Assembly (NCBI RefSeq): GCF_006715395.1
Contig: NZ_VFNC01000002.1
Location: 558,001 to 622,000 of the forward strand
Origin: Streptomyces sp. SLBN-31
Lineage (GTDB): Bacteria; Actinomycetota; Actinomycetes; Streptomycetales; Streptomycetaceae
Direction: 5' to 3'
DNA: 64,000 bases
Positions 11,276 through 62,394 of this stretch are shown here, one piece after another. The first letter of the stretch is position 1. Each line of letters opens with the position of its first letter. Under the pieces are notes generated by a model, which saw only the letters and a program-made list of their open reading frames with translations, did no database searches and was not told the origin of the DNA. The translations under genes and the position numbers were made by a program.

Positions 11276-12301
11276 ATGAAGATCGCAGTGCTGACCGGCG
11301 GGGGCGACTGCCCCGGTCTCAACGCCGTCATCCGCAGCGTCGTCCGTAAGGGCGTCCAGGACTACGGCTTCGAGTTCGTCGGTGTGCGCGACGGCTGGCT
11401 CGGCGCGCTGCGCAACAACATGATGCCGCTGGACGTCTCCGCGGTGCGCGGGATCCTGCCGCGCGGCGGGACCATCCTCGGTTCCTCCCGCACCAACCCG
11501 TTCAAGCACGAGGACGGGGTGCGGCGCATCCGGGACTCCCTGGCCGCGCACGACGTCGAGGCGATGATCGTGATCGGCGGCGAGGACACGCTCGGCGCGG
11601 CCACGGAGCTGAGCCGTCAGGGGATCAAGCTGGTCGGCGTACCGAAGACCATCGACAACGACGTGGCCGGCACCGACTACACCTTCGGCTTCGACACCGC
11701 CGTCGGCATCGCCACCGAGGCCATCGACCGGCTGCACACCACGGCCGAGTCGCACATGCGGACCCTGGTGGTGGAGGTGATGGGCCGCCACTCCGGCTGG
11801 ATCGCCCTGCACGCCGGCATCGCGGGCGGCGCCAACGTGATCCTCCTCCCGGAGCGGCCGTTCGACGTCGACCAGGTCTGCGCGTGGGTGAAGAGGCGCT
11901 TCGAGATCAATTACGCCCCGATCGTCGTCGCCGCCGAGGGAGCCGTTCCCAAGGAGGGCGAGATGGTCCTCAAGGACCGCTCGCGGGACGAGTACGGCCA
12001 CGTGCGCCTGTCCGGCATCGGCGAATGGCTCGCCCGGGAGATCGAGGGACGCACCGGCACGGAAGCCCGTACCACGGTCCTCGGACACGTCCAGCGCGGC
12101 GGCACCCCGAGCGCCTTCGACCGCTGGCTGGCCACGCGCTTCGGCCTGCACGCCGTGGACGCGGTCAGGGACGGAGCCTTCGGCACCATGGTCGCCCTGC
12201 GCGGCACCGACATCGTCCGCGTCCCGCTCGACGAGACCCGCGGCAGGATCAAGGTGGTCGATCCGGCGCTGTACGACGAGTTCGAGGTGTTCTTCGGCTG
12301 A
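11276..12301 (+). CDS. pfkA: 6-phosphofructokinase with PPi-type active-site residues, 341 aa
   Basis: ATG 11276 follows GGAGGAAACC. The protein is a full-length PfkA fold: [13 protein letters not shown] (phosphate loop), GGEDTLG (residues 101-107), PKTIDNDV (123-130, catalytic Asp), MGRHSGWIA, and GHVQRGG late. It phosphorylates fructose 6-phosphate to the 1,6-bisphosphate. Position 104 is Asp and position 124 is Lys. In this family Gly104 marks ATP users and Asp104 with Lys124 marks pyrophosphate users, so the enzyme is probably PPi-dependent and reversible, as in Amycolatopsis methanolica. The next gene, 116 bp on, is a class I aldolase acting on its product, so the two form a glycolytic/gluconeogenic pair. 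Confidence 0.92.
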
Positions 12302-12417
12302 GGCGAGGGCCGTTCGACCTCCGCGAGGTGCCGAACGGGGTCTGCCGCGCCACCACGCCGCGCCGCACGGTGGCAGTGGGCCGAGAGACGGCCGTACGAC
12401 GCCCTGGGGGTGTGACG

Positions 12418-13470
12418 ATGACTGACATCCAAGGCTTGCTGGGTGACGAGGCGAAGGAACTGCTGACCCATGTCGCCCTGGGGATTCCCAAGGAGGACCT
12501 GGTGCTGCCGGGCCCCGACTTCGTCGACCGGGTCGTGGCCGCCACCGACCGCTCGCCCCGCGTGCTGCGCAACCTGCAGGCCCTCTTCGCCCACGGCCGC
12601 CTGGCCGACACGGGGTACGTGTCGATCCTGCCGGTCGACCAGGGCATCGAGCACTCCGCGGCGTCCGCGTTCGCCCCCAACCCCCGGTACCTCGACCCCG
12701 CGAACATCGTGGAACTGGCCGTCGAGGGCGGCTGCAACGCCGTCGCCAGCACCCTTGGCGTGCTCGGGGCCGTGTCGCGGCGCTACGCGCACCGCATCCC
12801 GTTCATCGTGAAGCTCAACCACAACGAGCTGCTGACCTACCCCAACCACTACGACCAGGTCATGTTCGGCAGCGTCCAGCAGTGCTTCGACCTCGGCGCG
12901 GCCGGCGTCGGCGCCACGGTGTACTTCGGCTCCGAACAGTCCGACCGCCAGCTGCGGGAGGTCGGCGAGGCCTTCGCCCGCGCCCACGAGCTCGGCATGT
13001 TCACCGTGCTGTGGTGCTACCTGCGCAACGCGGCGTTCAAGAAGGACGGCGTGGACTACTCGGCGTCGGCCGACCTCACCGGCCAGGCCAACCACCTCGG
13101 CGTGACCATCGAGGCCGACATCGTCAAGCAGAAGCAGGCGGAGAACAACGGCGGCTACCGCGCCCTGGGCTTCGGCAGGACCGACCCGCTCGTCTACGAC
13201 ACCCTCACCAGCGACCACCCGATCGACCTCACGCGCTGGCAGGTCGCCAACTGCTACATGGGCCGCGTCGGGCTGATCAACAGCGGGGGCGCGTCGGCGG
13301 GCCAGGGCGATCTCGCCCAGGCCGTGCGGACCGCGGTGATCAACAAGCGGGCCGGCGGCACCGGCCTGATCACCGGCCGCAAGGCGTTCCAGCGACCCAC
13401 CGCCGAGGGCGTCGGGCTTCTCCACGCCGTGCAGGACGTCTACCTCGACGACAGCGTCACCATCGCCTGA
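12418..13470 (+). CDS. fbaB: Class I fructose-bisphosphate aldolase, 350 aa
   Basis: ATG 12418 follows GGGGGTGTGACG. The sequence matches the archaeal/bacterial DhnA-type class I aldolase: [46 protein letters not shown]-like Lys region ([14 protein letters not shown], Schiff-base lysine area) and [15 protein letters not shown] (phosphate-binding loop). It cleaves fructose 1,6-bisphosphate to the triose phosphates through a Schiff base without metal. Streptomycetes usually rely on a class II enzyme, so this is a second aldolase. Co-directional with pfkA upstream, and followed by a strong hairpin. Confidence 0.9.
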
Positions 13471-25266: not shown

Positions 25267-25342
25267 ATTCCACAGGATGGTGCTTTTGCCGTGGGGCTTC
25301 AACCGAAGCGGAGGACCGCCGCAGCCCTCCGTCTCCCCGCGG

Positions 25343-33922: not shown

Positions 33923-33948
33923 ACAAACACGGCCGGAATGTCTGATTT

Positions 33949-33974
33949 GTTTTGGATGTGCCTACCCTGGGCAT
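33949..33974 (+). promoter_or_regulatory. Candidate SigB-type promoter of the sigma-factor gene
   Basis: GTTT, a 16-bp spacer and GGGCAT. The streptomycete SigB pattern is GNNT-N14-16-GGGTAC/T; this differs at one -10 base. It lies about 130 bp upstream of ATG 34103 and would imply positive autoregulation. Confidence 0.35.
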
Positions 33975-34102
33975 GTGCATTGAGTGCTTCGGACAGGAGG
34001 CACGTCCGTGGGAGCCGGCCAGGCCCCGGATGTCTCCGCCGGTCCGAGTCCCTTCTCCCATGGTGTCTGTCCACCCGGCACTGCCCGAGGGAGGTGCGCG
34101 CG

Positions 34103-34897
34103 ATGCGCGTCACCACCGGTAGAAACAAGCCCCACCCGCACGACGACGCCCCCGACACGGCAGTGGCCTTCGAACGGCTGGCAGGGCTTCCCGACGGTCC
34201 CGAGCGCAAGGCGCTGCGGGACGAGCTGGTCCAGGTCTGGCTGCCCATGGCCGAGCGGATCGCCGTCCGCTTCAAGGGGCGCGGCGAGACCCTCGAAGAC
34301 CTCTACCAGGTCGCGGCCCTCGGCCTGGTCAAGGCCGTCGACCACTACGACCCGGCCCGCGGGCACGCCTTCGAGGCGTACGCGGTGCCGACCATCACCG
34401 GGGAGATCAAGCGGCACTTCCGCGACCACATGTGGACGCTGCACGTGCCACGCCGGGTTCAGGACCTGCGCAACCGGGTCAGGCAGGCCGCCAAGGAGCT
34501 GTCCCAGACCATCCCGGGCCGCCCGCCGACCGTCGCCGAGATCGCCCTGCACACACGGCTGAGCCAGAACGAGGTGCGCATCGGCATGGAGGCCCTGGAG
34601 TGCTTCTCCGCCCTGTCCCTCGACGCCGAGATGCCCGGCACCGACGGCTACGCCCTCGCGGACGCCATCGGCGGCCCCGATCCGGCGTACGACGTCGTCG
34701 TCGACCGCGTGGCGGTCGCACCCTGCCTGCAGGCACTGCCCGAGCGCGAGCGCACCATCCTCTACCTGCGGTTCTTCCGCGGCATGACACAGAGCCACAT
34801 AGCCCAGCAGCTCGGCATCTCGCAGATGCACGTGTCCCGGTTGCTCAGTGGATGCTTCGCCCAGTTGCGCGAGGAGCTCCTCGCGCAGGCCGGCTGA
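34103..34897 (+). CDS. RNA polymerase sigma factor, SigB/SigF/SigG type, 264 aa
   Basis: ATG 34103 follows GGGAGGTGCGCGCG. Region 2 is clear (EDLYQVAALGLVKAVDHYDP, then AFEAYAVPTITGEIKRHFRDH), region 3 follows, and region 4 has QSHIAQQLGISQMHVSRLLS. This is the stress/sporulation group 3 family controlled by anti-sigma kinases and STAS antagonists rather than a housekeeping factor. It does not sit beside its own RsbW-like gene; HATPase genes at 38400, 50385 and 50822 are candidate anti-sigmas. A longer open frame to 33938 is not needed. Confidence 0.92.
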   Translation: MRVTTGRNKPHPHDDAPDTAVAFERLAGLPDGPERKALRDELVQVWLPMAERIAVRFKGRGETLEDLYQVAALGLVKAVDHYDPARGHAFEAYAVPTITGEIKRHFRDHMWTLHVPRRVQDLRNRVRQAAKELSQTIPGRPPTVAEIALHTRLSQNEVRIGMEALECFSALSLDAEMPGTDGYALADAIGGPDPAYDVVVDRVAVAPCLQALPERERTILYLRFFRGMTQSHIAQQLGISQMHVSRLLSGCFAQLREELLAQAG

Positions 34898-50248: not shown

Positions 50249-50384
50249 GCGGCTGTGACGTACGGTGTTCGTCACGGCCGCCGGTTTCGGTACGCGTACG
50301 CGTAGCCGTCGCGCACTCGGGAACCAGGAAACGACAGGGACACAGGGGCGGGGCAGTGACGTGACCGCCGAGCGGGAAGGCGAG

Positions 50385-50816
50385 ATGGCAACCGATCACC
50401 GTTGGCACGGAAGTCCGGTCTCCGGCAACATGCCGGAGCGGGTCGCACGCTACCCGGGCGAGCTCCACAATGTGACGGACGCCCGTCTCGACGCGGAGCA
50501 GTTCCTCGACGATCTCGCCCAGGTGACGCCACCGACCGCGCCGGAGCACTGGGACGACATACTGCTGGTCGTCACGGAACTCACGGCCAACGCGGTCCAG
50601 TACGCGCCCGGGCCCATCGAGATCCGGCTGCGCCCGACCTTCGACGGGGTGCACCTCGTCGTCCACGACACCAGCAGCACTCCCCCGGCCCCGCGCCCCT
50701 TCCACCGGGACGGAAGCGGTGGGGTCGGCTGGCACCTGGTGCATGCGCTGTGCAGCCAGGTCAGCGTCGTCACCAACGACGCCGGGAAGGACATCCACGT
50801 CTTCCTGCCCTGGTGA
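50385..50816 (+). CDS. Anti-sigma-type ATP-binding protein (RsbW/HATPase), 143 aa
   Basis: A single HATPase domain: VTELTANAVQYAPG (N-box with Asn), LVVHDTSSTPPAP (G1 box), GVGWHLVHALCSQVSVV (G2 box). The GHKL fold without a histidine-kinase part is that of serine kinases that bind sigma factors and phosphorylate STAS antagonists. ATG 50385 has GGGAAGG upstream; GTG 50361 is another choice. It runs tail-to-tail with the HATPase gene 50822-51277 (5 bp between stops), so two such proteins lie back to back with no sigma gene between them. Confidence 0.85.
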   Translation: MATDHRWHGSPVSGNMPERVARYPGELHNVTDARLDAEQFLDDLAQVTPPTAPEHWDDILLVVTELTANAVQYAPGPIEIRLRPTFDGVHLVVHDTSSTPPAPRPFHRDGSGGVGWHLVHALCSQVSVVTNDAGKDIHVFLPW

Positions 50817-50821
50817 GGGCC

Positions 50822-51277
50822 TTAACGCAGGGCGCGCAGGGGCACCAGCAGACTGATCGTCTTGCCTCCCCCGCCGCGCCGGTCGATGACGATCTCGCGC
50901 GCCAGGCGGATGATGAGCGGCCAGCCGTAGCCGTGTCCGTGGTGGCTCACCGGCAGGGCTCCGGAACCGTAGGCGACGTCCGGGATGTCGTCGCTGTTGT
51001 CGTGCACGGCGAGCCGGATCCCCTCGGCGGTGGCGGCGACCTCGAAGGCCGCCAGTCCGCCGCCGTGCCGGATGGCGTTGGTGACCAGCTCGGACACGAC
51101 GAGGAGCAGGTCGATGACGTCCTCTTCCCGTGCCGTGCGCGATGCCGTGTCCCACTGCCGCCGCACCACCGAGCGGGCGTACTCGCGTGCCGCGGCCGCG
51201 GTCGTCACGTGCGGCACGGCAAGGGTCCCGCCCGGCATGCCGCCGTTCCCCTCGGCCGTCTGGTCGGGCCGGCTCAC
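50822..51277 (-). CDS. Anti-sigma-type ATP-binding protein (RsbW-like serine kinase), 151 aa
   Basis: HATPase: LLLVVSELVTNAIRHGGG (N-box), VHDNSDDIPDV (G1), GYGWPLIIRLAREIVIDRRGGGGKTISLLVP (G2 end). Its likely job is to hold a sigma factor and phosphorylate the STAS partner encoded just upstream. GTG 51277 overlaps that gene's stop (GTGA), so the kinase and antagonist are translationally coupled, the layout of rsbV-rsbW pairs. It is the last gene of the minus-strand phosphatase-B12-STAS-STAS-kinase series. Confidence 0.88.
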   Translation of the reverse strand: MSRPDQTAEGNGGMPGGTLAVPHVTTAAAAREYARSVVRRQWDTASRTAREEDVIDLLLVVSELVTNAIRHGGGLAAFEVAATAEGIRLAVHDNSDDIPDVAYGSGALPVSHHGHGYGWPLIIRLAREIVIDRRGGGGKTISLLVPLRALR

Positions 51278-51657
51278 CGCTCCGTCACTGCCCAGGGCGT
51301 CTCCACAGCGGACCGGACGTCCGGGGCGAGGACGAAGAACCTCGCGGTGCCTGTCACTTCAAACAGCCTTTCGATGCTTTCGTTCAACGGTCCCGCCACC
51401 ACCAGCGGCCTGCCGCGCGCCAGGTGAGCCTGCTGTGCCTCCAGCAGTACGTGCAGGATGGCGGAGTCGGCGAACCCGGTGGCCGAGAGGTCGACGACCG
51501 TACGCGCGGACGATGCCCGCTCCGCCGCGTGCAGCGCCTCCGCGAGCCGTGGGGCGCTGTCGACGTCGACGTCACCGTGCACACTCACGACGGTGACGTC
51601 CCGCTCTCCCTCTCGTACGCGGTGCTGGACGACGGCAGGACTCTCATCGTCGGACAT
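51274..51657 (-). CDS. STAS-domain anti-sigma-factor antagonist (RsbV-like), 127 aa
   Basis: A single STAS domain: VTVVSVHGDVDVDSAPRLAEALH, then VVDLSATGFADSAILHVLLEAQ with the phosphorylatable Ser in the D-S-A loop, and ARGRPLVVAGPLNESIERLFEVTG. Unphosphorylated, such proteins sequester the HATPase kinase and free its sigma factor. ATG 51657 has GGGAGGGG 8 bp upstream; the open frame to 52218 belongs to the upstream gene region in another phase. It overlaps the kinase gene (50822-51277) by 4 bp. A 125-bp gap separates it from the second STAS gene (51783). Confidence 0.88.
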   Translation of the reverse strand: MSDDESPAVVQHRVREGERDVTVVSVHGDVDVDSAPRLAEALHAAERASSARTVVDLSATGFADSAILHVLLEAQQAHLARGRPLVVAGPLNESIERLFEVTGTARFFVLAPDVRSAVETPWAVTER

Positions 51658-51782
51658 ACGACGTCCCCTCCCGCTCACGCTGCTCCTTCCGAACCGGCGA
51701 GGAATCTCTGCCGCTCGCTTCACAGCAGCAGTTACCCGGCTCGCCCGATCGCATTCGGCACGACTTCCCGGCGGCGCCGGAC

Positions 51783-52169
51783 TCAGCCCGTCCCCGGCCG
51801 CCCCTGGCCGTCGGAGTCCTGCTCGTGGGCGGTGAGATGGCCGTGCGTGCCGGTCATCACAAGGACTCGCTCCAGGGCGACGGGCCGCGCCTCCAGGACC
51901 AGACGGACACCCGCCTCGTCGGCGCGGCGCCGAAGCAGCAGCAGGGCCGAGAGGCCGGAGGAGTCGACGCAGTGCAGGCCGGCGAAGTCCAGTCGCACCA
52001 CGCCGGCGGGGCGGTGCCGCGCGGGATCGCCGGGGGCTAGCAACGGCGTGACCGTGTCCACGAGTTCTCGGTGCGTCTCGTAGTCGAGGTCGCCTTCGAC
52101 GCGCACCACCACGCCGTCCGGTCCCTGGTCGACCTCGAGGCCGAACAGCGGTGGGTGAGGGTTCGTCAT
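51783..52169 (-). CDS. STAS-domain antagonist coupled to the B12 protein, 128 aa
   Basis: STAS: DGVVVRVEGDLDYETHRELVDTVTPLL, then RLDFAGLHCVDSSGLSALLLLRRRA with the canonical D-S-S-G phosphosite, and a long C-terminal tail (TAHEQDSDGQGRPGTG). Its ATG 52169 lies inside the stop of the B12-binding protein gene (ATGA overlap), so it is made together with it. It is the natural target of the phosphatase encoded at the head of this operon. An overlapping 503-codon frame is a shadow. Confidence 0.88.
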   Translation of the reverse strand: MTNPHPPLFGLEVDQGPDGVVVRVEGDLDYETHRELVDTVTPLLAPGDPARHRPAGVVRLDFAGLHCVDSSGLSALLLLRRRADEAGVRLVLEARPVALERVLVMTGTHGHLTAHEQDSDGQGRPGTG

Positions 52170-53266
52170 ACGTGCTGTCCGTCTCCTGGCTTCCTCGGTG
52201 CCGGCAGGTGTCTGGCAAGGGTGTCCCGTGCCGCTCGGAGAATGCGGGTGGCGCGGGGAAAGTCCCTCAGCCGGAGGCCGAGCACCTCGAGTGCCGGGTC
52301 CAGCGAGTGGGCGGGCACGTCTCGGGCGGTCAGGACGTCGGCCGTCCAGGCGATGAAGTCGATGAAGAGGTCCTCGTCGGCCACGTACAGGGCCGCCGCG
52401 AGATGGTCGAGGATGTGGCCGATGTCCTCGGCCGTGCGCTGCCGCTGCCGGTCGCTGTAGGCGCGCATCGGCGGGAAGCGGTCCTCCAGCTCGACGAGGG
52501 CCTCCTTGAGCAGCTCCCGCCGGGTGCCGACCACCATGGTGTACTCCTGGTCGGTCAGGTGGGGCAGGTCGTCGACGGTCTGCCGGATGGCCAGGGGCTC
52601 GGGCCGGGCGAGTCCCCGGTCGAGGACGCGGGCCGCCTCGCGGGCGTGCGGTGCCCAGGCGTCGGCGCCCAGGGCACGGGCGTAGCGCCCGTCGGTCCCG
52701 AAGGCCGCGCCGCCCGCGAACACGGGTACCCCGACCGCCTGGCAGGCCGTGATCGCCGCGTGTGCCGTGGGCAGGTGGGGGGAGAGCGTGGCGGACAGGG
52801 CCACGACCCGGGCGCCCGTCTGGTGCAGATGGGCGATCAGGTGGGGTGTGGGCACGTGCGCGCCGAGGAAGTCGACCTGCCAGCCGCGCCGGCGCAGCAC
52901 CTCGGCCAGCAGCCTGGCCGGCAGGGCGTGCCACTCCCCGTCCACGCAGGCCACGGTGATCCGGGACCGGCTGGGGGCGGGGCCGCGGTGCTCGGGGTCG
53001 TGGGCGAGGGCCGCCACGACCCGTTCGTGGATGGCCGTGGCCGCGTGTTCCTGCGCCACCGTGAGCCGGTTCGCCGCCCATTCCGTGCCCACGCGCAGCT
53101 GGACCGCGCCGATCACGTCCAGCAGTGCCGTTTCGGGGTCCAGGCCGGACTCGACGGCGCCGACGACGACGGCGCAGGCCTCGTACTCGTCGCCGGCCCG
53201 GACCGCCGTCCACAGCCGGTCGCGGACGGCGGTGAGGCCGGGGTGGGTGGCGTTCGCGGCGGTCAT
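52166..53266 (-). CDS. Cobalamin-binding CarH-like sensory protein without DNA-binding domain, 366 aa
   Basis: Residues about 1-95 form a four-helix bundle and 100-225 a Rossmann B12-binding domain. Two CarH/LitR photoreceptor marks are present: W-x9-E-H (Trp63, Glu73, His74 in WAANRLTVAQEH) and E-x-H (Glu111, His113 in VDGEWHALPARL), the latter giving the lower cobalt ligand. The residue after Trp63 is Ala, where Thermus CarH has His132, the light-state upper ligand. No MerR helix-turn-helix is present. The C-terminal ~130 residues (DIGHILDHLAAALY... FIAWTADVLTARDV) are helical and unassigned. ATG 53266 overlaps the phosphatase stop and its own stop overlaps the STAS start. Confidence 0.88.
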   Translation of the reverse strand: MTAANATHPGLTAVRDRLWTAVRAGDEYEACAVVVGAVESGLDPETALLDVIGAVQLRVGTEWAANRLTVAQEHAATAIHERVVAALAHDPEHRGPAPSRSRITVACVDGEWHALPARLLAEVLRRRGWQVDFLGAHVPTPHLIAHLHQTGARVVALSATLSPHLPTAHAAITACQAVGVPVFAGGAAFGTDGRYARALGADAWAPHAREAARVLDRGLARPEPLAIRQTVDDLPHLTDQEYTMVVGTRRELLKEALVELEDRFPPMRAYSDRQRQRTAEDIGHILDHLAAALYVADEDLFIDFIAWTADVLTARDVPAHSLDPALEVLGLRLRDFPRATRILRAARDTLARHLPAPRKPGDGQHV

Positions 53267-54924
53267 GCCGTGAACCTTCCCCGGGTGTGGCCATCCACGG
53301 CGCTGAGGTGGGCGTGGCGGGGAGCGGTCACGGTCACCAGGGCCATGTCGTCGTGCGTGCCGTGACCGACCCACTGCTCGGCCAGCATCCGCACGTGGTC
53401 GACCACGGCTTCGGCGGGCATGCCCGCGCAGTGGGCGAGCGCGTCCTCGACCCGCTCGGGGCCGAACATCTCGTCGCCGAGCGGCCCGCCCCGGGCCTCG
53501 GTCACCCCGTCCGTGAACAGCAGGCAGGTCTCCCCAGGGGCGAGTTCGACGTGTGCGGTGGTCGAGGCGATGTTCCAGAAGACGCCCACCAGTGAGCCGC
53601 GTGTGTCCACGCGCTCCACCCGGCCGTCGGCGCGGACGACCAGCGGCGGCGGGTGGCCGCCGCTGGTGACCCGCAGGTGCACCGTCCGCCCGAGGCGGCG
53701 CACGGAGGCCAGCAGCAGGGTGGCGAACCGGGTGTGATGGGAGTTGATCAGGGCGCCGTTGAGGAGCTCCAGCAGCCGCTGGTGGTCACCGGCGAGCGGC
53801 AGCAGGGCCTGCAGGGTGTTGCGGATCTTCCCCGTCAGTACGGCTGCTTCCAGACCCTTGCCGCACACGTCGCCCAGCACGACCATGGTCTCCCGGTCGG
53901 CGTCCGTGCCGGGGTGGACGTCGTAGAAGTCGCCGCCCACCCGGTCGCTCTCCGCGGACGGCCGGTAGGCCCCCGCGTACTCGACGCCGTGCACGGCTCT
54001 GAGCGTGGGCGGGAGCAGGTCGCGCATCAGGGTGCTGGTGATGGCCGCCTGTTCCGCGTACATGCGGGCCGCCGACATCGCCGCTCCGGCCCGGGCCGCG
54101 AACAGCCGGGCGAAGATCTCCTCGCTCTCGGAGAACGCCTGCCGGTCGCCGGCGCGCAGGAGGATCAGCGCGCCCGCCGGCACGCCGTGTCCCGGCAGGG
54201 GGGTCACCACGGCCGAGCCGACGCCGGGCAGGTCCTCGGGCACCAGCCAGGAGGCGATGCCGGCGGGGTCTATCCAGCGCGAGGGCACCGGGGGGAAGCC
54301 GCGGAGGGCTTCGCCCAGCCCGGGGACGCCGGCCGGCTCGGCCTCCACCAGCCGGTGGACGACCTGGCCGTCGGCACCGCAGTGGGTGACGGGGAACCGG
54401 CCGCCCCTGGCCGGGGCCACCACGACCGCCGCGTCCGCGAGGTGCTCGGCGGCGAGGGAGGCGGTGACCTCCATGCACCGTTCGAGGTTCAGTGAGGCGA
54501 GCAGTGCGCTGGAGGCGGCGGCCAGGAACGAGGTGCGCCTGCGCTCCTCGTCGAGGCTGACCTCGGCCTTGCGGCGGTCGGTGTCGTCGACGAGCCACCA
54601 CATCACATTGCCGTCGTCCGTACGGCTGGGGCGGCCCTGGAAGACGCGGTCGCCGAGGCAGCCGTGCGCCGCCGAGCCGGCGGCGTCGTCCGCGGTGGCC
54701 GGACCGGGGGTCAGCTGCTCGTGGGCGCTGGCGATCCAGGCCGGCGCGACGTCCGCGAGGCGCGATCCGACGGCGGCCGTCGGCAGCAGAACGGCGGCGG
54801 CCGGATTCAGGCCGACTACACCGCCCTGGATGTCGGCGACGAGCACGGGATAGGGCGCGGAGCCCCAGGCCCCCTCCGTGGGGGCATCGAGTGGACCGAC
54901 GAGAGAGTGCTGGGATGTGTCCAC
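53263..54924 (-). CDS. PAS-GAF-PP2C (SpoIIE/RsbU-like) phosphatase, 553 aa
   Basis: Order: PAS-like (about 18-110, VLVADIQGGVVGLNPAAAVLL), GAF (about 150-310), PP2C/SpoIIE (about 330-553) with metal Asp residues in VGGDFYDVHPG, LGDVCGKGLEAAVL, LFTDGVTEARG and THDDMALVTV. It should dephosphorylate a STAS antagonist to switch a sigma factor on. GTG 54924 is the best start I can offer (no clear ribosome site); an ATG at 55065 would add 47 residues. Its stop overlaps the start of the B12 protein gene (ATGA), making it the head of the phosphatase-B12-STAS operon. Confidence 0.88.
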   Translation of the reverse strand: MDTSQHSLVGPLDAPTEGAWGSAPYPVLVADIQGGVVGLNPAAAVLLPTAAVGSRLADVAPAWIASAHEQLTPGPATADDAAGSAAHGCLGDRVFQGRPSRTDDGNVMWWLVDDTDRRKAEVSLDEERRRTSFLAAASSALLASLNLERCMEVTASLAAEHLADAAVVVAPARGGRFPVTHCGADGQVVHRLVEAEPAGVPGLGEALRGFPPVPSRWIDPAGIASWLVPEDLPGVGSAVVTPLPGHGVPAGALILLRAGDRQAFSESEEIFARLFAARAGAAMSAARMYAEQAAITSTLMRDLLPPTLRAVHGVEYAGAYRPSAESDRVGGDFYDVHPGTDADRETMVVLGDVCGKGLEAAVLTGKIRNTLQALLPLAGDHQRLLELLNGALINSHHTRFATLLLASVRRLGRTVHLRVTSGGHPPPLVVRADGRVERVDTRGSLVGVFWNIASTTAHVELAPGETCLLFTDGVTEARGGPLGDEMFGPERVEDALAHCAGMPAEAVVDHVRMLAEQWVGHGTHDDMALVTVTAPRHAHLSAVDGHTRGRFTA

Positions 54925-55077: not shown

Positions 55078-55410
55078 TCAGTTCGAGCCGGCGGTGGCCC
55101 CGTAGGCCTCCCAGCGGACCTCGGGCCACAGGTCGGCGGCGAGTGCGAGCAGCCTCGACGGCTGGGGCCGCAGGCCCGCGATCCGCAGCAGTCCGCCGCG
55201 TCCGGTGACGGAGTGGTCGACGGTGCGCAGGAGGTGGAGCAGCGCCGAGTCGACGAAGTCGACGCGGGCGAGGTCGAGGGTGAGATACCGCACAGTGAGC
55301 GGCAGCCGGGCCGCGGCGCTCTCGATGGCGGGCCGCGCCCGCTCGTCGATATCGCTGTCCACGGTCAGGGTGGCGGTGCGACCGCCGGGGCTCAGTGAGA
55401 TGCGAGGCAT
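55078..55410 (-). CDS. STAS-domain antagonist, 110 aa
   Basis: A compact STAS domain: RTATLTVDSDIDERARPAIES, TLDLARVDFVDSALLHLLRTVD (Ser in the D-S-A loop), GGLLRIAGLRPQPSRLLALAA. ATG 55410 fits the family start. It is divergent from another STAS gene (55489), with 78 bp between starts, so a shared control region is possible. It ends about 150 bp before the phosphatase start at 54924 and could be co-transcribed with that operon. Confidence 0.82.
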   Translation of the reverse strand: MPRISLSPGGRTATLTVDSDIDERARPAIESAAARLPLTVRYLTLDLARVDFVDSALLHLLRTVDHSVTGRGGLLRIAGLRPQPSRLLALAADLWPEVRWEAYGATAGSN

Positions 55411-55488
55411 GACGTGGGCATTCAGGGGTAATCGCGGTTGCGCGGTGCACACTGGTCGCCGTAGTACGCGCTGTTGTTGGAGGTAGAC

Positions 55489-55860
55489 GTGTCCGTTGCC
55501 CAGAATCCCCTGTCCGTCGAGGTCAGCCTGCCCCGTGAGGATGTGGCCCTGATCACGGTGCAGGGTTACTTGGACGCCGACACCGCGACCGAGTTCCAGC
55601 ACCATCTCGCCAACCAGCTGCATCACGGCCGCCGGCATTTCCTGCTCGATCTCTCGGAGGTGCCGTTCATGGACTCGTCCGGGATGAACATCATCCTCCG
55701 CGTCTACCAGGAGGCCCGGGAACTGCCCGGCAGTGTGCACATCATCTCGCCCACGCCCGCCGTGCGGCGGATTCTCGACCTCACCGGAGTCAGCATCACG
55801 GTCCCCGTGTCGGAGAGCACGGAGGAGGCCCTTGCCCTGGTCGACCAGCCGCAGTCCTGA
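55489..55860 (+). CDS. STAS-domain anti-sigma-factor antagonist (BldG/RsbV-like), 123 aa
   Basis: STAS: LSVEVSLPREDVALITVQGYLDADTATEFQHHL, then LLDLSEVPFMDSSGMNIILRVYQEA with a canonical D-S-S-G phosphoserine site, and HIISPTPAVRRILDLTG. This is the closest in the window to BldG/RsbV. GTG 55489 has GGAGG 5 bp upstream; TTG codons at 55474/55477 are less likely. Single gene, followed by a convergent MarR gene. Confidence 0.88.
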   Translation: MSVAQNPLSVEVSLPREDVALITVQGYLDADTATEFQHHLANQLHHGRRHFLLDLSEVPFMDSSGMNIILRVYQEARELPGSVHIISPTPAVRRILDLTGVSITVPVSESTEEALALVDQPQS

Positions 55861-55943
55861 CCAACTGTTGCCGTTTGACAACTATGGGTGCAGGCAAGAG
55901 AGTGAGCTCGCACGTGGGCGGGAGAGGTGGGGATGAGAAGGGG

Positions 55944-56420
55944 TCAGGCGGTGACGGCGGCGGACTCGCCGTCGTCGTGGATCTGCGCCGCCGCGGCGGC
56001 GCAGAAGGCCTCCAGCCCCTTCAGCAGGGCGGACCGCTGGGCGGTCGGCATCTGTTCGAGAACGGACTGCAGTGCGCTCTCGCGGCGGACCCGCAGGCCG
56101 GTCAGGAAGGCCCGGCCGCGGCGGCTGAGGTACAGCTCCAGTTCCCGCCGGCTGGCGGTGGCCGCCCTGCGCTCGACGAACCCCACGGCCTGCAGCCGGT
56201 CGCACAGCCGACTGGTCGACGGCGGGGTCGAGCCCAGCGCGTCCGCGAGCGTACGCAGGTTGATGCCTTCGTTGTGCTCCAGGATGAACAGGACACGCAG
56301 TTGGGAGGCGGAGACCGGTGCCGTCGAGGCCCGGCCCCACAGGACCTCCAGAAGTTCGGCAGCCTCGGAGGTCACACGCGCCACCTCCTGGGGCTCCGGG
56401 CGCGGGTGCGAGATCGTCAC
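55944..56420 (-). CDS. MarR-family transcriptional regulator, 158 aa
   Basis: Winged helix: VSASQLRVLFILEHNEGINLRTLADALGSTPPSTSRLCDRLQAVGFVERRAATASRRELELYLSRRG, the MarR pattern with its arginine-rich wing. GTG 56420 has GAAGG about 7 bp upstream; GTG 56426 is too close to that site. It sits inside the partner-switching island, divergent from the PP2C gene at 56559 (138 bp between starts), and may control that gene. Confidence 0.87.
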   Translation of the reverse strand: MTISHPRPEPQEVARVTSEAAELLEVLWGRASTAPVSASQLRVLFILEHNEGINLRTLADALGSTPPSTSRLCDRLQAVGFVERRAATASRRELELYLSRRGRAFLTGLRVRRESALQSVLEQMPTAQRSALLKGLEAFCAAAAAQIHDDGESAAVTA

Positions 56421-56558
56421 CCGCACACCTTCTCAGGCTTGCCCGTCGCTGTCAGCCCACCCAGGTGCGCGGCGCAAGGGACCGGGAGCGGTCCACAAGG
56501 CACGGGTGACCGCGTCGCGTCCGTACGGCCGCGGCGGCTCGCCCTCGCACGGAACGGC

Positions 56559-57746
56559 ATGACCGACGACGTGAACAGACTCCAGGCCGCCGGTCGCGCC
56601 CTGCGCACCGCCGCTCCGCACTTACTGGCGGCAACCGTCCGCGAGGTGCTGTGCGGTCCGTACGGCGCCGAGAGCGCGGACTTCCTCATCGTGGACTACG
56701 GGCTGAAGGTGTTGCAGCCCGTCTCCGCGACGGCGGATCCCGCGCAGGCGGTGCCCGTGCACGGCAGCGCGGCGGGACGCGCGTTCGGGGCACAGCAGCC
56801 CTTCGTGCTGGAGGACGACGACGGCCGGGCGTGGATGCACCTGCCCGTCACCGTGCGCGGGGACCGGCTGGGCGTGCTCAGCGTCACACTGCCGCCCAGC
56901 GCACGGCCCGAGGCCGACATGGCCGAACTGGTCGAGCTGGCCCAGATCCTGGGACACGAGGTCTCGGTGGCCGAACGTGACACCGACGTCTACCGGCAGG
57001 CCCGGCGCCGGGAGCGGCTCACACTCGCCGCGGAGATGCAGTGGCAGTTGCTTCCGGCCCGGTCCTCGGCCGGTCCGGAGTACGCCCTCGGCGCCCAGCT
57101 GGAGCCCGCCTACGCGATCTTCGGCGACAACTTCGACTGGACGGTGTCGGCCGACCGGCTGCTGCTGTACGTCACCGACGGCATGGGCGAGGGCATGGAC
57201 GCCTCGCTGCTGACCAGCCTCGGGATCAACGCCCTGCGCAACGCGCGCCGGGCCGGCATCCCCATCGCCGACCAGGCCGCCCTCGCCGACCAGGCCGTGT
57301 ACGCCCAGTACCGCGGCGAGGCGCACCTGTCCGTCCTGCTGGTCGATCTCGAACTGTCCTCCGGCCGCGTGCGGGTGGTCGACGCGGGATCGCCGCGGAT
57401 GCTGCGGCTGCGGGACGGCGCGGTGACGCCCGTGTCCCTCGACGCGCAGCTCCCGCTCGGCATGTTCGAGGGAACCGACTACACGGCGCAGGAGTTCCGG
57501 CTGCGGCCGGGCGACCGTCTGCTGTTCGTCAGCGACGGGGTGCACGCGGTCGCCGCTCCGGGCGGTGAGCAGTACGGAGAACGCGCCCTGGCCCGCGCCT
57601 TCACGGCCACCCGGCTGCTGCCGGCCGCCGATGTGCCGGCCGCGGTTCTGCGGGAGCTCAGCGGCCATCGCGGCCGCCCGGAACCGGACGACGACGCACT
57701 GGTGGTCTGTCTGGACTGGTTCGGCAAGCAGCCGACGGGCGCGTGA
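56559..57746 (+). CDS. GAF-PP2C (SpoIIE-type) phosphatase, divergent metal site, 395 aa
   Basis: N-terminal ~140 residues are GAF-like (DFLIVDYGLKVLQPVS ... GRAFGAQQPFVLEDDDG); the PP2C domain follows (about 165-390). The motifs are off-consensus: GDNFDWTVS replaces GGDWYD, TDGMGEGMDASLL replaces GDVxGHG, with SDGVHAV and DDDALVVCLDW later. The Asp metal ligands are still there, so activity is plausible. ATG 56559 is preceded only by a weak ribosome site; frames further upstream are not family-like. It ends in a palindrome just before the rsbR-like operon. Divergent from MarR. Confidence 0.84.
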   Translation: MTDDVNRLQAAGRALRTAAPHLLAATVREVLCGPYGAESADFLIVDYGLKVLQPVSATADPAQAVPVHGSAAGRAFGAQQPFVLEDDDGRAWMHLPVTVRGDRLGVLSVTLPPSARPEADMAELVELAQILGHEVSVAERDTDVYRQARRRERLTLAAEMQWQLLPARSSAGPEYALGAQLEPAYAIFGDNFDWTVSADRLLLYVTDGMGEGMDASLLTSLGINALRNARRAGIPIADQAALADQAVYAQYRGEAHLSVLLVDLELSSGRVRVVDAGSPRMLRLRDGAVTPVSLDAQLPLGMFEGTDYTAQEFRLRPGDRLLFVSDGVHAVAAPGGEQYGERALARAFTATRLLPAADVPAAVLRELSGHRGRPEPDDDALVVCLDWFGKQPTGA

Positions 57747-57759
57747 GCCCCGGGGCTCA
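57744..57759. terminator. Perfect 16-bp palindrome at the PP2C stop
   Basis: TGAGCCCCGGGGCTCA, which includes the TGA stop. As RNA it can fold to a short hairpin; it may end the phosphatase transcript ahead of the stressosome operon. Confidence 0.4.
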
Positions 57760-57760
57760 A

Positions 57761-57781
57761 GTAACGACACGGTCTCGTTAC
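57761..57781. promoter_or_regulatory. Inverted repeat GTAACGA-N7-TCGTTAC upstream of the rsbR-like operon
   Basis: Perfect 7-bp arms around CACGGTC, 94 bp before the rsbR-like start at 57875. Spacing suits a dimeric regulator. No regulator gene for it is adjacent except the MarR at 55944-56420. Confidence 0.6.
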
Positions 57782-57874
57782 AGTTGTCGCCCGGCAATGG
57801 TTTGCGTCGCCCCGGCCGTTCGGCGGCCACCCCGGTCCACGCAACGCGGACGACTCGGAAAGAGGAGAGAGCAG

Positions 57875-58774
57875 GTGCCGGAACACCAAGCGGCGGTATG
57901 TCAGGGAACGCCGGCTCGGCAGGTAGGGGAATTCCTGTACCGCCATCGCGAACGCATCGCCCAGCGCTGGGCCGACGAACCCCTGTTCCGCAGCGTGTTC
58001 ACGGTCTCGCGGGACGAGGCCGTGGAGGCGGCCCGGGCGGTCGCCGAAGCGCTGGCCCGGGTGGCCGAGTCGGAGCGCGTGCACGACACGGACGCCTCCG
58101 GCTTCGTCGTCGTACGGGAACAGCTGGCCCGTATGGCGGCCGCGCGGTCGCGCGCCGGGGCCTCCATGGCGCAGGTCTCGGGCGAGGTGGAGGCGCTGCG
58201 CCCGCCTGTGGCGAGTCTGCTCGTCGAGGAGTGCGCGGACCTGCCCGCCGACGAGGTCCGGGAGTACGCCACCGAGCTGACGGTCCTGATGGGGACGCTG
58301 CGGCTGGTCGTGCTGGACACGGCACTGTCCGAGGGACAGGCGCTGATAGAGCGGCAGCAGCTCCAGCTGCTGGAGGTGGCCACCCCGGTGATCAGGCTGT
58401 GGGACGGCGTCGTGGCGGTTCCCCTGATCGGGACGCTCGACAGCGCGCGCAGCCAGGTGGTGATGGAGACGTTGCTGGAGGCCATCGTCGAGCAGCACGC
58501 GCGTTTCGCGATCCTCGACATCACCGGTGTGCCGACGGTGGACTCGCTGGTCGCCCAGCACCTGATGAAGACGGTGGCGGCCGCCCGCCTGATGGGCGCG
58601 GAGTGCGTCGTGTCGGGCATCCGCCCGGCGATCGCGCAGACCATCGTCCATCTCGGCCTGGACCTCGGCACGGTGGTCACCCGGGCCAGCCTCGCCGACG
58701 CGCTGGCCTACGCGCTGCACGAGCTGGGCGTGGGCATCGTCGCACCGGCGTCCGGCGGTGCGGGGGCGCGATGA
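57875..58774 (+). CDS. rsbR: RsbR-like stressosome scaffold (RsbRD N-terminal + STAS), 299 aa
   Basis: Residues about 12-150 are the helical RsbRD_N sensor domain (FLYRHRERIAQRWADEPLF), then LLEVATPVIRLWDGVVAVPLIGTLDS (conserved linker with the Thr171-equivalent of Bacillus RsbR) and a STAS domain with VPTVDSLVAQHLMKTV (Thr205-type site is Ser here). RsbR proteins and RsbS build the stressosome, which holds RsbT until stress. GTG 57875 has GAGGAGAG upstream. Its stop overlaps the rsbS start (ATGA). First of five coupled genes. Confidence 0.92.
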   Translation: MPEHQAAVCQGTPARQVGEFLYRHRERIAQRWADEPLFRSVFTVSRDEAVEAARAVAEALARVAESERVHDTDASGFVVVREQLARMAAARSRAGASMAQVSGEVEALRPPVASLLVEECADLPADEVREYATELTVLMGTLRLVVLDTALSEGQALIERQQLQLLEVATPVIRLWDGVVAVPLIGTLDSARSQVVMETLLEAIVEQHARFAILDITGVPTVDSLVAQHLMKTVAAARLMGAECVVSGIRPAIAQTIVHLGLDLGTVVTRASLADALAYALHELGVGIVAPASGGAGAR

Positions 58775-59190
58775 GCGACCGACTCCAGCACGGCGTCGCG
58801 AGCCATGTGCCGGTACTCCGCCTGGGCGAGGTCCTCCTGGTCACCCTCCAGGGCGATCTGCACGACAGTGACGCGCAGCGGCTCCAGCAGGACATCTGTG
58901 AGGCCGTCGCGAGCAGTGGGGTGACCGGAGTGGTGATCGACATCTCCGGCGTCGAGATCGTCGACTCCTTCCTCGGCCGTGTGCTGGCCGAGATCGCGGC
59001 CAACGCCTCGCTGCTGGCCGCCCGGACGGTGGTGGCGGGCATGCGGCCGGCGGTCGCGATCACCCTGGTGGAGCTGGGCCTGACGCTGCCGGGGCTGCGC
59101 ACGGCTCTCACCACCGAGGCTGCCATGGAACTGCTGACGCACCACGACCCGGCGGCCGGCCGCGGCAGGTTGCCCCAGGAGCACGGTTGA
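58771..59190 (+). CDS. rsbS: RsbS-like stressosome STAS protein, 139 aa
   Basis: Single STAS domain: VPVLRLGEVLLVTLQGDLHDSDAQRLQQDI, then VVIDISGVEIVDSFLGRVLAEIA, the RsbS signature with the Ser equivalent to Bacillus Ser59, and ARTVVAGMRPAVAITLVELGLTLPG. RsbS with RsbR forms the stressosome core; RsbT phosphorylates it on stress. ATG 58771 overlaps the rsbR stop by 4 bp and its own stop overlaps the rsbT start. A C-terminal tail of about 20 residues is longer than in Bacillus. Confidence 0.93.
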   Translation: MSDRLQHGVASHVPVLRLGEVLLVTLQGDLHDSDAQRLQQDICEAVASSGVTGVVIDISGVEIVDSFLGRVLAEIAANASLLAARTVVAGMRPAVAITLVELGLTLPGLRTALTTEAAMELLTHHDPAAGRGRLPQEHG

Positions 59191-59630
59191 TGCCCTCGTC
59201 CACGGCCGTCGAGGCGAGTCTGCCGATCCAGTCGGAGATGGATCTGGCCTGGGTCCGCCAGCATGTACGACAGGCCGCCGCTCAGCTCGGCTTCGGTCTC
59301 GTGGCGCAGACCAAGCTGGTCACCGCCGCCAGTGAGCTGGCCCGCAACACGCTCGTGCACGGCGGGGGCGGCCGTATGGAATCGGCGGCGGTGACGCGCG
59401 GACAGGCACGCGGCCTCCGACTGGTCTTCTCCGACGAAGGGCCCGGCATCGCCGACCTGGAACGGGCCCTTGCCGACGGTTACACCTCCGGCGGCGGCCT
59501 GGGCATGGGGCTGGGCGGCGCACGGCGCCTGGTGCACGAGTTCGCCGTCGACAGCACCCCGGGGTCGGGCACCAAGGTCACGGTCGTCTCCTGGGTCACC
59601 CCACCGCTCCGTCCCTACGGAGGCCTGTGA
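59190..59630 (+). CDS. rsbT: RsbT-like serine/threonine kinase, 146 aa
   Basis: HATPase: TAASELARNTLVHGGGG (N-box), FSDEGPGIADLERALADGYTSGGGLGMGLGGARRLVHEF, the RsbT D-G-P-G-I...DGYTSGGGLG...GARR signature. RsbT phosphorylates RsbS and RsbR and, when freed, activates the RsbU-type phosphatase. ATG 59190 overlaps the rsbS stop (TGATG); a TTG at 59187 is also in frame. Its stop overlaps the next gene in the same way. Length is normal for RsbT. Confidence 0.93.
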   Translation: MPSSTAVEASLPIQSEMDLAWVRQHVRQAAAQLGFGLVAQTKLVTAASELARNTLVHGGGGRMESAAVTRGQARGLRLVFSDEGPGIADLERALADGYTSGGGLGMGLGGARRLVHEFAVDSTPGSGTKVTVVSWVTPPLRPYGGL

Positions 59631-60685
59631 TGGCGCGCGCATGGGACGTGCCGGTCCACGACCCCACCCGGCTGCGCGACGCCCGGCTGGCCGTCGAGGA
59701 GGCCGCGGCCGCGGCCGGACTCGACGAGGCCCGGACGGCGGACGCCGCGCTGGTGGCCACGGAGCTGGCCACCAACCTGCTCAAGCACGCCGAGGCGGGA
59801 CGGCTGCTCCTCGACGTCGTCCCTACCCCGGCCCCCGTGGAGGGCGGCGACCAGACCCGCTTCGTGCAGATCGCGGCGCTGGACCACGGCCCCGGTATCG
59901 CCGACGTGCCTGCCGCCCTCGGCGACGGCTTCACGACGGCCAGGTCGCTGGGCGCGGGTCTGGGCACCTGCAGGCGCGTCGCCGACACCTTCGCCGTGCA
60001 CAGCGAACCGGGCCGGGGCACGGTGGCGCTGGCCCAGGTCGGTCCCGGCACGCGCGATGCCGCGCCCGCTGACCGCCGGGTACGGGCCGGTGGTGTGAAC
60101 CTTCCCTTCGGCGGGGCCGAGCACTCCGGCGACGCCTGGACCTGCGTCCGGTCCGGTGACCGGGTGACCTTGATGCTGGCCGACGGCCTGGGACACGGTC
60201 CCCAGGCCGCCCACGCCTCCACGGCCGCGGTCGAGGCGCTGCGGGGATCGGCCCACCTGCCTCCGGCGGAATGCCTGGGCCGGCTCGATACGGCCCTGCG
60301 CGGCACCAGGGGCGCGGCCGTGGCCGTGGCCCAGGTCGACACCGCCTCCGCGACGCTCCGTTTCGCCGGGCTCGGGAACGCGAGCGCCTGGCTGTGGGAG
60401 GACGGTGCCTGGCACTGCCTGCTGTCCCGCCCCGGGATCGTCGGCGTCCACCGGCCCAGGACCCTCACGGACCAGTCGCGGCGCTGGGGCGGCGACCGGG
60501 TTCTGCTCCTGCACAGCGACGGCCTCCCCGGCCGCCGCACACCGCCGTCCGCACCGGATCTGCTGGCGGCCGACCCGGCCGTCATGGCCGCGGTCACCCT
60601 CCGCGACAGCGGCAGCGCCGCCCGGCCGCCCCGCGACGACACAGCCGTGGCCGTCCTGTCGCCGGCACCGCAGGAGGGCCGATGA
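59630..60685 (+). CDS. HATPase-PP2C fusion (RsbT/W-like kinase + RsbX-like phosphatase), 351 aa
   Basis: Residues about 1-135 form a second HATPase (VATELATNLLKHAEAG; DHGPGIADVPAAL; GAGLGTCRRVADTFAVHS). Residues about 150-350 form an RsbX-like PP2C (GGAEHSGDAWT, LMLADGLGHGPQAAHAS, LLLHSDGL, RDDTAVAVL). In Bacillus RsbX is a separate feedback phosphatase that resets RsbS and RsbR; here it is joined to a kinase-type domain, giving opposing activities on one chain. ATG 59630 overlaps the rsbT stop; GTG 59627 is an in-frame alternative. Ends in a 4-bp overlap with the next gene. Confidence 0.9.
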   Translation: MARAWDVPVHDPTRLRDARLAVEEAAAAAGLDEARTADAALVATELATNLLKHAEAGRLLLDVVPTPAPVEGGDQTRFVQIAALDHGPGIADVPAALGDGFTTARSLGAGLGTCRRVADTFAVHSEPGRGTVALAQVGPGTRDAAPADRRVRAGGVNLPFGGAEHSGDAWTCVRSGDRVTLMLADGLGHGPQAAHASTAAVEALRGSAHLPPAECLGRLDTALRGTRGAAVAVAQVDTASATLRFAGLGNASAWLWEDGAWHCLLSRPGIVGVHRPRTLTDQSRRWGGDRVLLLHSDGLPGRRTPPSAPDLLAADPAVMAAVTLRDSGSAARPPRDDTAVAVLSPAPQEGR

Positions 60686-62394
60686 AGCGCACCTGGCGGA
60701 TCGACACCGTCACCGACGCGGCCCAGGCTCGCATCGCCACCGCCCGCCTGGCCTCGGCGTACGGTCTGACCGCGCTCGAACGCACCCGTCTGACGACGGC
60801 GCTCAGCGCGCGGCTGCGGCAGTGCCTGGCCAAGGGCGGCTCCTGGCGGCTCACGCTCTGCGTCACCGCCGTCCCCGCCGAGCAGGCGCAGCTGCACGTC
60901 ACCGTCACCTCCTCGGATCCCGCCGAGCATCCGCCGTGGCGGACGGCCGTCGCCTGCGCCGCGCAGCCGGTCGCGGACGACGATGTCGCGGCCGGCTCCC
61001 CGGCGGATCTGGCCGAGTCCCTGATGGTCGCCGACGAGGACACTGCGCTGCTGTTGGAGAAGCTCACCGAGCAGGAGCAGCTGGTCGCCTTCCACCGGGA
61101 GGAACTGCACCAGACCAACCAGGGTGTGCTGGCCCTGCACGCGGAGCTGGACGCCGCCGGCCAGGCCCAGCAGAAGGCCTTCGCCGCCGAGCGCAGGGCC
61201 CGTCAGGAGGCCGAGAGCGCCCGTCGGCGCCTGACCTTCCTGGCCGATGCCAGCGCCGCCCTGACCTCCTCCCTCAACCACGAAGAGATCGTGCGCCGCC
61301 TTCCGGAACTGCTCGTGCCGGAGTACGCCCGCAGCGTCGACGTCTGGCTCTTCGACGGCGACGACGACCGGCGCCCCCCGGGGCCGCGCCCCGCCGTCGC
61401 CGTCCTGGCGGCGCGCACCGGCCGCCCCCAGTACGCCGCCCGCGAGCCGGGCCACCTGCCCGGCGTCGACGACCAGCCACCCTCGGCACTCGACCCCGAA
61501 CGGCCCCTGCTGTGCCTGCCGTTGCCCACCCGCAGGGCGCCGCTCGGTGTGCTGACCCTGGCACCGCCCGGCGACCGCTGGGAACCGGACGACGCGGTCA
61601 TGCTCATCGAGTTCGCCCGGCGCGCCAGCATCGCGATCGACAACGCCCGGCGCTTCGAACGCAACCGGGACATCGCCGAGACGCTCCAGCGGGCCCTGCT
61701 CACGGACCTGCCCGCCACACCGGGCCTCCATCTGGCCGCCCGCTATCTGCCGGCCACCCACGGGCTGAACATCGGCGGCGACTGGTACGACGCCTTCCGG
61801 CAGCCCGACGGCTCGCTGATCGCCGTCATAGGGGACGTCACCGGGCACGGACTGCACGCGGCCGTGATGATGAGCCAACTGCGCACCGCCCTGCGGGCGT
61901 ACGCCGTGGACGGCGGCAGCCCCGGCACCCTGCTGACCCGGCTGCACACGTTCCTGCACCATCTCCAGCCCGACCTGTACGCCACCGCCGTCATCGCCCG
62001 CTTCCAGCCCGGCCGGCCCACCCTCACCTGGGCCGCCGCCGGCCACCCGCCGCCGCTGCTGCGCACCCCCGACGGACAGGTGCACACGCTGGACGCCAAA
62101 CCGGGCGCCATGCTGGGCATCCCGTTGCACCAGCGGATCGACGACCACACGGTGGACCTCCCGCCCGGGTCAACACTGGCGCTCTACACGGACGGGCTGG
62201 TCGAACGCCGGGCGGCGGGGATCGATCCGGGCATAGCGCGCCTGGCGGCGTCGCTCGGCGGCTTCCGGCCGGACGAGCTCGAGCGGGATCTGGACGGCTC
62301 GGCCGACCGCGTCCTCGACCCCCTGCTCGTCGACTCCGAGCGCGACGACGACGTGTGCCTGCTGCTGTGTCACACCACGGAGGGCTTCGTCTAG
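60682..62394 (+). CDS. rsbU: RsbU/SpoIIE-type phosphatase with HATPase-like head, coiled coil and GAF, 570 aa
   Basis: Residues about 1-100 resemble a worn HATPase head (LASAYGLTALERTRLTTALS) without an N-box Asn. A coiled coil (about 115-180, EDTALLLEKLTEQEQLVAFHREELHQ and QAQQKAFAAERRARQEAE) follows, then GAF (about 190-320) and PP2C/SpoIIE (about 345-560: IGGDWYDAFR, IGDVTGHGLHAAV, LYTDGLVERRA, DDDVCLLLC). It should be the output phosphatase that RsbT switches on, acting on a STAS antagonist such as 55489. ATG 60682 with AGGAGGG overlaps the previous stop. Last gene of the operon. Confidence 0.92.
   Translation: MKRTWRIDTVTDAAQARIATARLASAYGLTALERTRLTTALSARLRQCLAKGGSWRLTLCVTAVPAEQAQLHVTVTSSDPAEHPPWRTAVACAAQPVADDDVAAGSPADLAESLMVADEDTALLLEKLTEQEQLVAFHREELHQTNQGVLALHAELDAAGQAQQKAFAAERRARQEAESARRRLTFLADASAALTSSLNHEEIVRRLPELLVPEYARSVDVWLFDGDDDRRPPGPRPAVAVLAARTGRPQYAAREPGHLPGVDDQPPSALDPERPLLCLPLPTRRAPLGVLTLAPPGDRWEPDDAVMLIEFARRASIAIDNARRFERNRDIAETLQRALLTDLPATPGLHLAARYLPATHGLNIGGDWYDAFRQPDGSLIAVIGDVTGHGLHAAVMMSQLRTALRAYAVDGGSPGTLLTRLHTFLHHLQPDLYATAVIARFQPGRPTLTWAAAGHPPPLLRTPDGQVHTLDAKPGAMLGIPLHQRIDDHTVDLPPGSTLALYTDGLVERRAAGIDPGIARLAASLGGFRPDELERDLDGSADRVLDPLLVDSERDDDVCLLLCHTTEGFV

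Follow-up and report, generated by a model that had tools for sequence, protein, structure and literature searches.

We analysed a 64,000-nucleotide stretch of the Streptomyces sp. SLBN-31 genome (contig NZ_VFNC01000002.1, positions 558,001 to 622,000; hereafter the window) and found that the B12-binding protein encoded at 52166-53266 is, as judged from alignment and predicted structure, a full-length photocobilin, whose gene overlaps that of a PPM/SpoIIE-type phosphatase in a partner-switching operon. We propose, with a probability of roughly 0.62, that light switches this photocobilin and thereby sets the activity of the adjacent phosphatase, such that a STAS anti-anti-sigma protein would become dephosphorylated.

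Identity and chromophore sites of the B12 protein

Open reading frames and Pfam searches place five minus-strand genes in series, for a phosphatase, the B12 protein, two STAS proteins and a HATPase, with 4-bp overlaps at 53263-53266 (phosphatase and B12 protein), 52166-52169 (B12 protein and first STAS) and 51274-51277 (second STAS and HATPase). An earlier reading, made from the letters alone (the sequence-only reading), had described the same five genes and three overlaps, and the gene ends agree. Pfam matches comprised SpoIIE (PF07228, the PPM domain, at 53263-54924; 141 bits), B12-binding (67 bits), B12-binding_2 (48 bits), STAS twice and HATPase_c_2; the partner-switching gene set it had recognised is likewise present, STAS proteins with a phosphorylatable Ser (DSS and DSA motifs) being encoded together with the HATPase_c_2 protein.

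A search of solved structures with the B12 protein returned SasPcob (8j2w/8j2x) with an expectation value (E) of 3e-83 across residues 11-354 and AbPcob (AbDPcob, 8j2y) with 1.4e-37 over residues 46-348, followed by CarH at about 4e-9 for its B12 part only. The AlphaFold model, built with 38 sequences and having a mean predicted local distance difference test score of 88.9, matched 8j2w over the whole chain with template modelling scores of 0.93 by target and 0.84 by query, the CarH match covering only about 205 columns. We assign the protein to the photocobilins because of this full-length alignment and the fold match to 8j2w and 8j2y. After about residue 240, a bilin-binding globin-like domain is joined to the B12 domain, the last third of the protein having been overlooked by the sequence-only reading. 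Its label "CarH-like" does not name the closest kind: the protein scores 55 bits against the 400-bit NCBIfam cut-off for CarH, and its full-length solved relatives are photocobilins. The missing MerR DNA-binding domain was correctly called, no MerR-type Pfam match being found, and with A64 in place of His132 we rejected CarH/LitR membership. Names such as "methanogenic corrinoid protein MtbC1" among database relatives, and weak NCBIfam matches to MtbC and MtgC, could suggest a corrinoid protein of a methyltransferase system with no sensory role. This is very improbable, as these matches fall far under their cut-offs (35.7 versus 350 bits and 30.9 versus 310 bits), no methyltransferase was seen among the annotated neighbouring genes, and the full-length match is to photocobilins; a methyltransferase partner was accordingly discarded.

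We then compared chromophore-site residues with SasPcob, whose published numbering equals chain numbering plus 6 (checked on Trp61, Glu71, His72 and His108). W63, E73, H74 and H113 align to these four residues of the cobalamin site, and E111-x-H113 is present; the W-x9-EH and E-x-H motifs and the Ala64 of the sequence-only reading thus stand. An alignment it had named in advance as a possible refutation puts Trp63 and His113, on SasPcob Trp61 and His108, inside the CarH-type pocket, so that the protein is predicted to bind adenosylcobalamin in a pocket of the CarH type while having no DNA-binding domain, as it had proposed. H142, D281 and W307 align to His137, Asp270 and Trp296, which are named in the SasPcob biliverdin site; in AbPcob (AbDPcob), Asp270 is replaced by His and biliverdin binding is poor (PMC10979010). 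Bilin-binding globins often carry C-x-R-D (PMC10151467); the window photocobilin has no Cys three residues before D281, and bilin would therefore be held non-covalently, as in SasPcob. Across 98 close sequences including that of the window (two loci with matches shorter than 240 residues were dropped), W63, E73, H74, H113, H142 and D281 are invariant, W307 is found in 97 and A64 in 95. In loci L166-L185 the four cobalamin-site residues are kept in 20/20, D281 in 14/20 and W307 in 18/20.

Ala64 removes the His that CarH uses as its light-state ligand, and six carriers of photocobilins (G043, G044, G046, G054, G131 and G418) have no PF01126 heme oxygenase. Both observations would suit a protein that senses cobalamin or bilin supply, or oxygen or redox via cobalamin, instead of light, within the same switch gene set. 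We consider this quite unlikely, since the adenosyl-holding Trp and Glu-His and the cobalt-ligand His are kept in 98/98 close relatives, elements of the light signature given in PMC11796333 are present, and SasPcob, with Gln at the position of Ala64, responds to light (PMC10979010). SasPcob also lacks the bis-His light state of CarH, water or hydroxide ending on its cobalt (PMC10979010), which largely settles the puzzle of Ala64. Of the two suggestions made earlier for this residue, a different light-state ligand is upheld and a purely cobalamin-sensing use becomes less likely. The host encodes one PF01126 heme oxygenase and one corrinoid adenosyltransferase, making biliverdin supply plausible here. 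Heme oxygenase was detected in 50 of 69 genomes tested, and in 44 of 47 from the window's genus (misses in G013, G250 and G426); as support for biliverdin it is uninformative within the genus and speaks against generality outside it, the supply being not universal among photocobilin carriers.

Conservation and history of the gene coupling

From at least 494 confirmed relatives in one-per-species genomes, ranked by likeness to the window protein, we took the best 80 and scanned their flanks, some of them cut by contig ends, with purpose-built profile hidden Markov models. A SpoIIE gene lies directly upstream on the same strand in 79/80 loci, and in 78/80 an in-frame photocobilin start codon overlaps its stop by exactly 4 bp. 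The 79 include L097, in which SpoIIE is split between frames; a photocobilin-phosphatase fusion was entertained there, both domains occurring in one open frame, and was rejected because part of SpoIIE lies in another. Taxa represented include Streptomyces, Mycobacterium, Mycolicibacterium, Amycolatopsis, Saccharothrix, Actinacidiphila, Streptacidiphilus and Nonomuraea. Given 67 SpoIIE matches in the host genome, we estimate chance adjacency at about one in a hundred, and retention of the phosphatase directly upstream in 79 of the closest loci excludes a chance arrangement.

Downstream, 72/80 loci have a STAS gene whose end lies no more than 900 bp away, 65 of them with a 4-bp overlap, and 67 of these 72 STAS proteins have Ser at the phosphorylation site. 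The frequency of this downstream gene and of its overlap, together with the common role of STAS proteins as partners of sensors in stressosomes, would favour the STAS protein or the kinase as the target of the photocobilin instead of the phosphatase. Such a target is unlikely in our view, as SpoIIE is retained in 79/80, six of them without an adjacent same-strand STAS gene (L106, L113, L132, L147, L160 and L164), and likewise in L174, L179 and L180, further loci of this kind, and a HATPase gene occurs in the flanks of only 48/80. Since SpoIIE is kept where STAS is not, gene order points to the phosphatase as the direct partner of the photocobilin.

To place this coupling in the phylum, 396 genomes were drawn independently of neighbouring genes, giving 34 matches (E <=1e-20) in 30 genomes, 26 of which reach the C-terminal domain. 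Flanks were inspected for 25 of these (G419 was left out). All 12 photocobilins of the window's class have a SpoIIE neighbour, versus none of the 13 from other classes. Relaxing the threshold (E up to 10) still revealed no SpoIIE in these 13 flanks, of which L181, L182 and L183 are short on one side, and all 10 genomes concerned encode SpoIIE-family matches elsewhere. Nine of the 12 same-class loci have a STAS gene immediately after the photocobilin gene, in the same orientation. A second draw, of the window's genome and 60 relatives (61 genomes), yielded 18 photocobilin loci (E <1e-20, C-terminal domain reached), 16 of which adjoin SpoIIE; the two draws share three loci, and kinship makes all these counts less than independent. 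Within the window's genus, a photocobilin (E <1e-60) occurs in 10/37 genomes, its own included.

Six records of a plasmid collection contain a long photocobilin match. The three Streptomyces records inspected (H1, H4 and H5; L239, L241 and L240) are large linear plasmids typed mobilizable, and all three carry annotated genes for a PP2C phosphatase, a cobalamin-dependent protein, STAS and, directly after it, MarR in series. The typing suggests that the operon may move between strains.

On a photocobilin tree (47 sequences, quick method, several long branches), the label "SpoIIE next" requires 3 changes, versus 13.6 in shuffles, and SpoIIE-adjacent photocobilins fall into a main clade that includes SasPcob and a distant clade of three (L174, L179 and L180). 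These three come from one genus, probably mycobacterial, because its closer photocobilins group with Mycobacterium loci. When 58 SpoIIE domains were placed on a tree, the 18 linked phosphatases, among them those of the distant clade, formed one cluster with four unlinked ones (Shimodaira-Hasegawa-like approximate likelihood ratio test, SH-aLRT, 93). The unlinked members are a second SpoIIE-STAS pair (L136), one of tandem SpoIIE genes (L237), a lone SpoIIE (L236) and a SpoIIE-STAS-HATPase run (L235). The L136 pair (10718-12933) has no photocobilin and lies right after SpoIIE-photocobilin-STAS, resembling a tandem duplicate. Taken together, the trees fit an old pairing of SpoIIE and photocobilin, which may also have arisen twice.

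A proposed light-controlled phosphatase

By analogy with SasPcob and AbDPcob, adenosylcobalamin would occupy the CarH-type pocket and biliverdin the neighbouring globin-like domain, and the Co-C bond would be broken by green light, or by red light via the bilin. The adenosyl group would then leave, water and not another His would bind to cobalt, and the head-to-tail dimer of the dark state would open. This state would be read by the translationally coupled phosphatase, whose GAF-like domain and linker helix most likely touch the photocobilin, and would decide if PPM domains form an active pair. If the later steps resemble RsbU/RsbT and RsbV/RsbW, the active phosphatase would dephosphorylate the STAS protein at 51783, and perhaps also that at 51274, which would capture the HATPase kinase (50822) and free a SigB/F/G-type sigma factor. 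What the sequences show is the identity of the protein, its chromophore-site residues and a conserved gene coupling; that the operon answers to light, that the two proteins bind each other, in which direction the effect goes and that a sigma factor is the target are matters of inference.

The phosphatase sequence contains GGDFYD, GDVCGKG, TDG and HDD, which we take to be the metal-binding Asp motifs of PPM enzymes. Of the sequence-only description "PAS-GAF-PP2C", only the last part is firm: GAF scored 20 bits against a Pfam cut-off of 22.4, and PAS gave no Pfam match. In the predicted model, a pair of N-terminal alpha/beta domains precedes a long helix, a topology that fits PAS and GAF and is no proof of PAS; the first 50 structural matches listed are all to PPM domains, so none informs the N-terminal ones. 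PPM phosphatases activated by linker-mediated pairing are described by Baral et al. 2025 (PMC12143880). Action in trans has a precedent, as holo-SasPcob in the light activates AbDGC, a case of a standalone photocobilin acting on another protein (PMC10979010).

Several observations weigh against the proposed switch. Gene adjacency is not contact. The sign of SasPcob action changed with biliverdin, and AbDPcob was still dimeric in the light by small-angle X-ray scattering (PMC10979010), so that the output may be something other than a dimer-monomer switch. L145 alone among the 80 closest loci has no SpoIIE gene, and the relatives draw contains two uncoupled copies, a broken second copy (L197) and a member of the same class with 31% identity and one internal stop (L185). 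The divergent SpoIIE-adjacent photocobilins of L174, L179 and L180 have Ala or Thr for the biliverdin Asp and Arg for His142, and are possibly cobalamin-only versions; two of the three genomes also have no PF01126 heme oxygenase. The six carriers named above have no such gene.

Finally, the operon itself contains no sigma gene. The host genome has 11 SigBFG-type genes over cut-off, one of them at 33938-34897 and another, next to a HATPase gene, roughly 4 kb beyond the end of the window. Assignment by synteny was abandoned, a SigBFG-like gene occurring in the flanks of 9/80 loci and these genes best matching different paralogues of the host genome (L045, L044, L041 and L048). A SigB-like promoter pattern has two matches in the window (30277 and 35342), neither near the operon.

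The wiring into partner switching put forward by the sequence-only reading is supported by the operon link to phosphatase, STAS and kinase genes, and in outline it is not new: Zhang et al. 2024 (PMC10979010) listed STAS, SpoIIE and PP2C proteins as potential SasPcob partners from a STRING network, while calling the function of standalone photocobilins less clear. Beyond that prediction, we found no experimental link between photocobilins and partner switching in the openly licensed literature. What our analysis adds is how strong and widespread the coupling is and its restriction to one class, a bilin site that is intact, and one specific direct target, which the near-constant 4-bp coupling and its absence from 13 other-class loci single out and which is testable in vitro. 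The open question of what standalone photocobilins control is thereby turned into one experiment. If the proposal is correct, many soil actinobacteria would have a green- and red-light input into sigma-factor partner switching, and the light-gated phosphatase could be used as a tool. More tentatively, and with doubt outweighing confidence, standalone actinobacterial photocobilins might serve a single lineage of PPM phosphatases as its own light switches on a separate chain, in which the change between dark dimer and light form directly governs linker-helix pairing, as RsbT does on RsbU; they would form a two-chromophore light gate on a general stress switch, the pairing with the phosphatase being old enough to be common to distant branches of the class.

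Neighbouring genes and comparison with known systems

Table 1. Features of the photocobilin operon and adjoining genes (window coordinates).
Feature	Position	Strand	Evidence or remark
Photocobilin, 366 aa	52166..53266	-	Structure-library sequence search, Pfam, model fold match, residue alignment; B12-binding_2 helical bundle ~14-87, B12-binding Rossmann ~102-211, bilin-binding globin-like C-terminal domain ~240-351
PPM/SpoIIE-type phosphatase, 553 aa	53263..54924	-	Two N-terminal alpha/beta domains, linker helix 266-302
STAS, anti-anti-sigma type	51783..52169	-	Ser in CVDSSGLS motif; likely phosphatase substrate, by sequence
Second STAS	51274..51657	-	Pfam; start from sequence, most likely ATG 51657, 125 bp past end of first STAS
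HATPase, anti-sigma kinase type (RsbW/SpoIIAB/RsbA-like)	50822..51277	-	Pfam, NCBIfam
Extra STAS upstream of phosphatase	~55078-55410	-	Pfam; start read from sequence
Convergent HATPase adjoining operon	50265..50816	+	Kept in close relatives L085, L088, L093
STAS, stressosome-like set		+	
SpoIIE phosphatase	frame to 57746	+	
RsbRD-N/STAS	57743-58774	+	
STAS	to 59190	+	
RsbT-like HATPase	59187-59630	+	
HATPase-PPM	59627-60685	+	
GAF-SpoIIE phosphatase	frame to 62394	+	

The operon lies in a 9.47 Mb genome assembled in three contigs, and its best protein and locus matches are from Streptomyces. Orthologues of its HATPase occupy the same position in the nearest relatives (L085-L090 and L093), and the extra STAS gene, whose end lies 153 bp upstream of the phosphatase start (54924), is possibly on the same transcript. 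Beside the operon, a stressosome-like gene set with several 4-bp overlaps occupies 55474-62394 on the plus strand. L085 retains this gene order, as L086 largely does, so in that small clade the light input may be connected with that of the stressosome. A MarR-family gene at 55944-56426 on the minus strand belongs to a subfamily found repeatedly in the vicinity of photocobilin operons; the idea that MarR is a constant fifth gene finds no support, a match (E <1e-45) occurring in the flanks of 15/80 loci and immediately downstream on the plus strand in 6/80. Elsewhere in the window are a gene for a SigB/F/G-type sigma factor, that at 33938-34897, and one for a PAS-PAS-GAF-SpoIIE-HATPase protein (22924-25302). 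Elsewhere, the same genome encodes two MerR-plus-B12 proteins of the LitR/CarH kind (L006, 1384-2439, minus strand; L007, 763-1857, plus strand), in both of which the residue following the W-x9-EH Trp is Ala or Gln instead of His; one of the two genes adjoins an extracytoplasmic function (ECF)-like sigma gene.

Among known systems, CarH/LitR proteins (5C8D, 8C31 and others) share with the window protein a B12 domain with W-x9-EH and E-x-H, whereas the window protein has no MerR domain, an extra globin domain and no His at position 64. AbDPcob (8J2Y) has the same two sensory domains with a light-controlled enzyme output fused to them; in the window the output is encoded by separate genes, and Asp (D281) is kept where AbDPcob has His at the biliverdin site. 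SasPcob (Saccharothrix syringae, 8J2W/8J2X) is likewise a standalone protein of B12 domain and bilin globin, but it is only 46-48% identical and has Gln after the Trp where the window photocobilin has Ala; its partners come from a network prediction, while the phosphatase, two STAS proteins and kinase of the window operon are read directly from the DNA. In RsbT-RsbU and RsbQ-RsbP (Baral et al. 2025, PMC12143880), a separate partner controls a PPM phosphatase with a sensor domain, a linker helix and a STAS substrate. A like layout is predicted here from the genes, with a partner that by its sequence is a photoreceptor.

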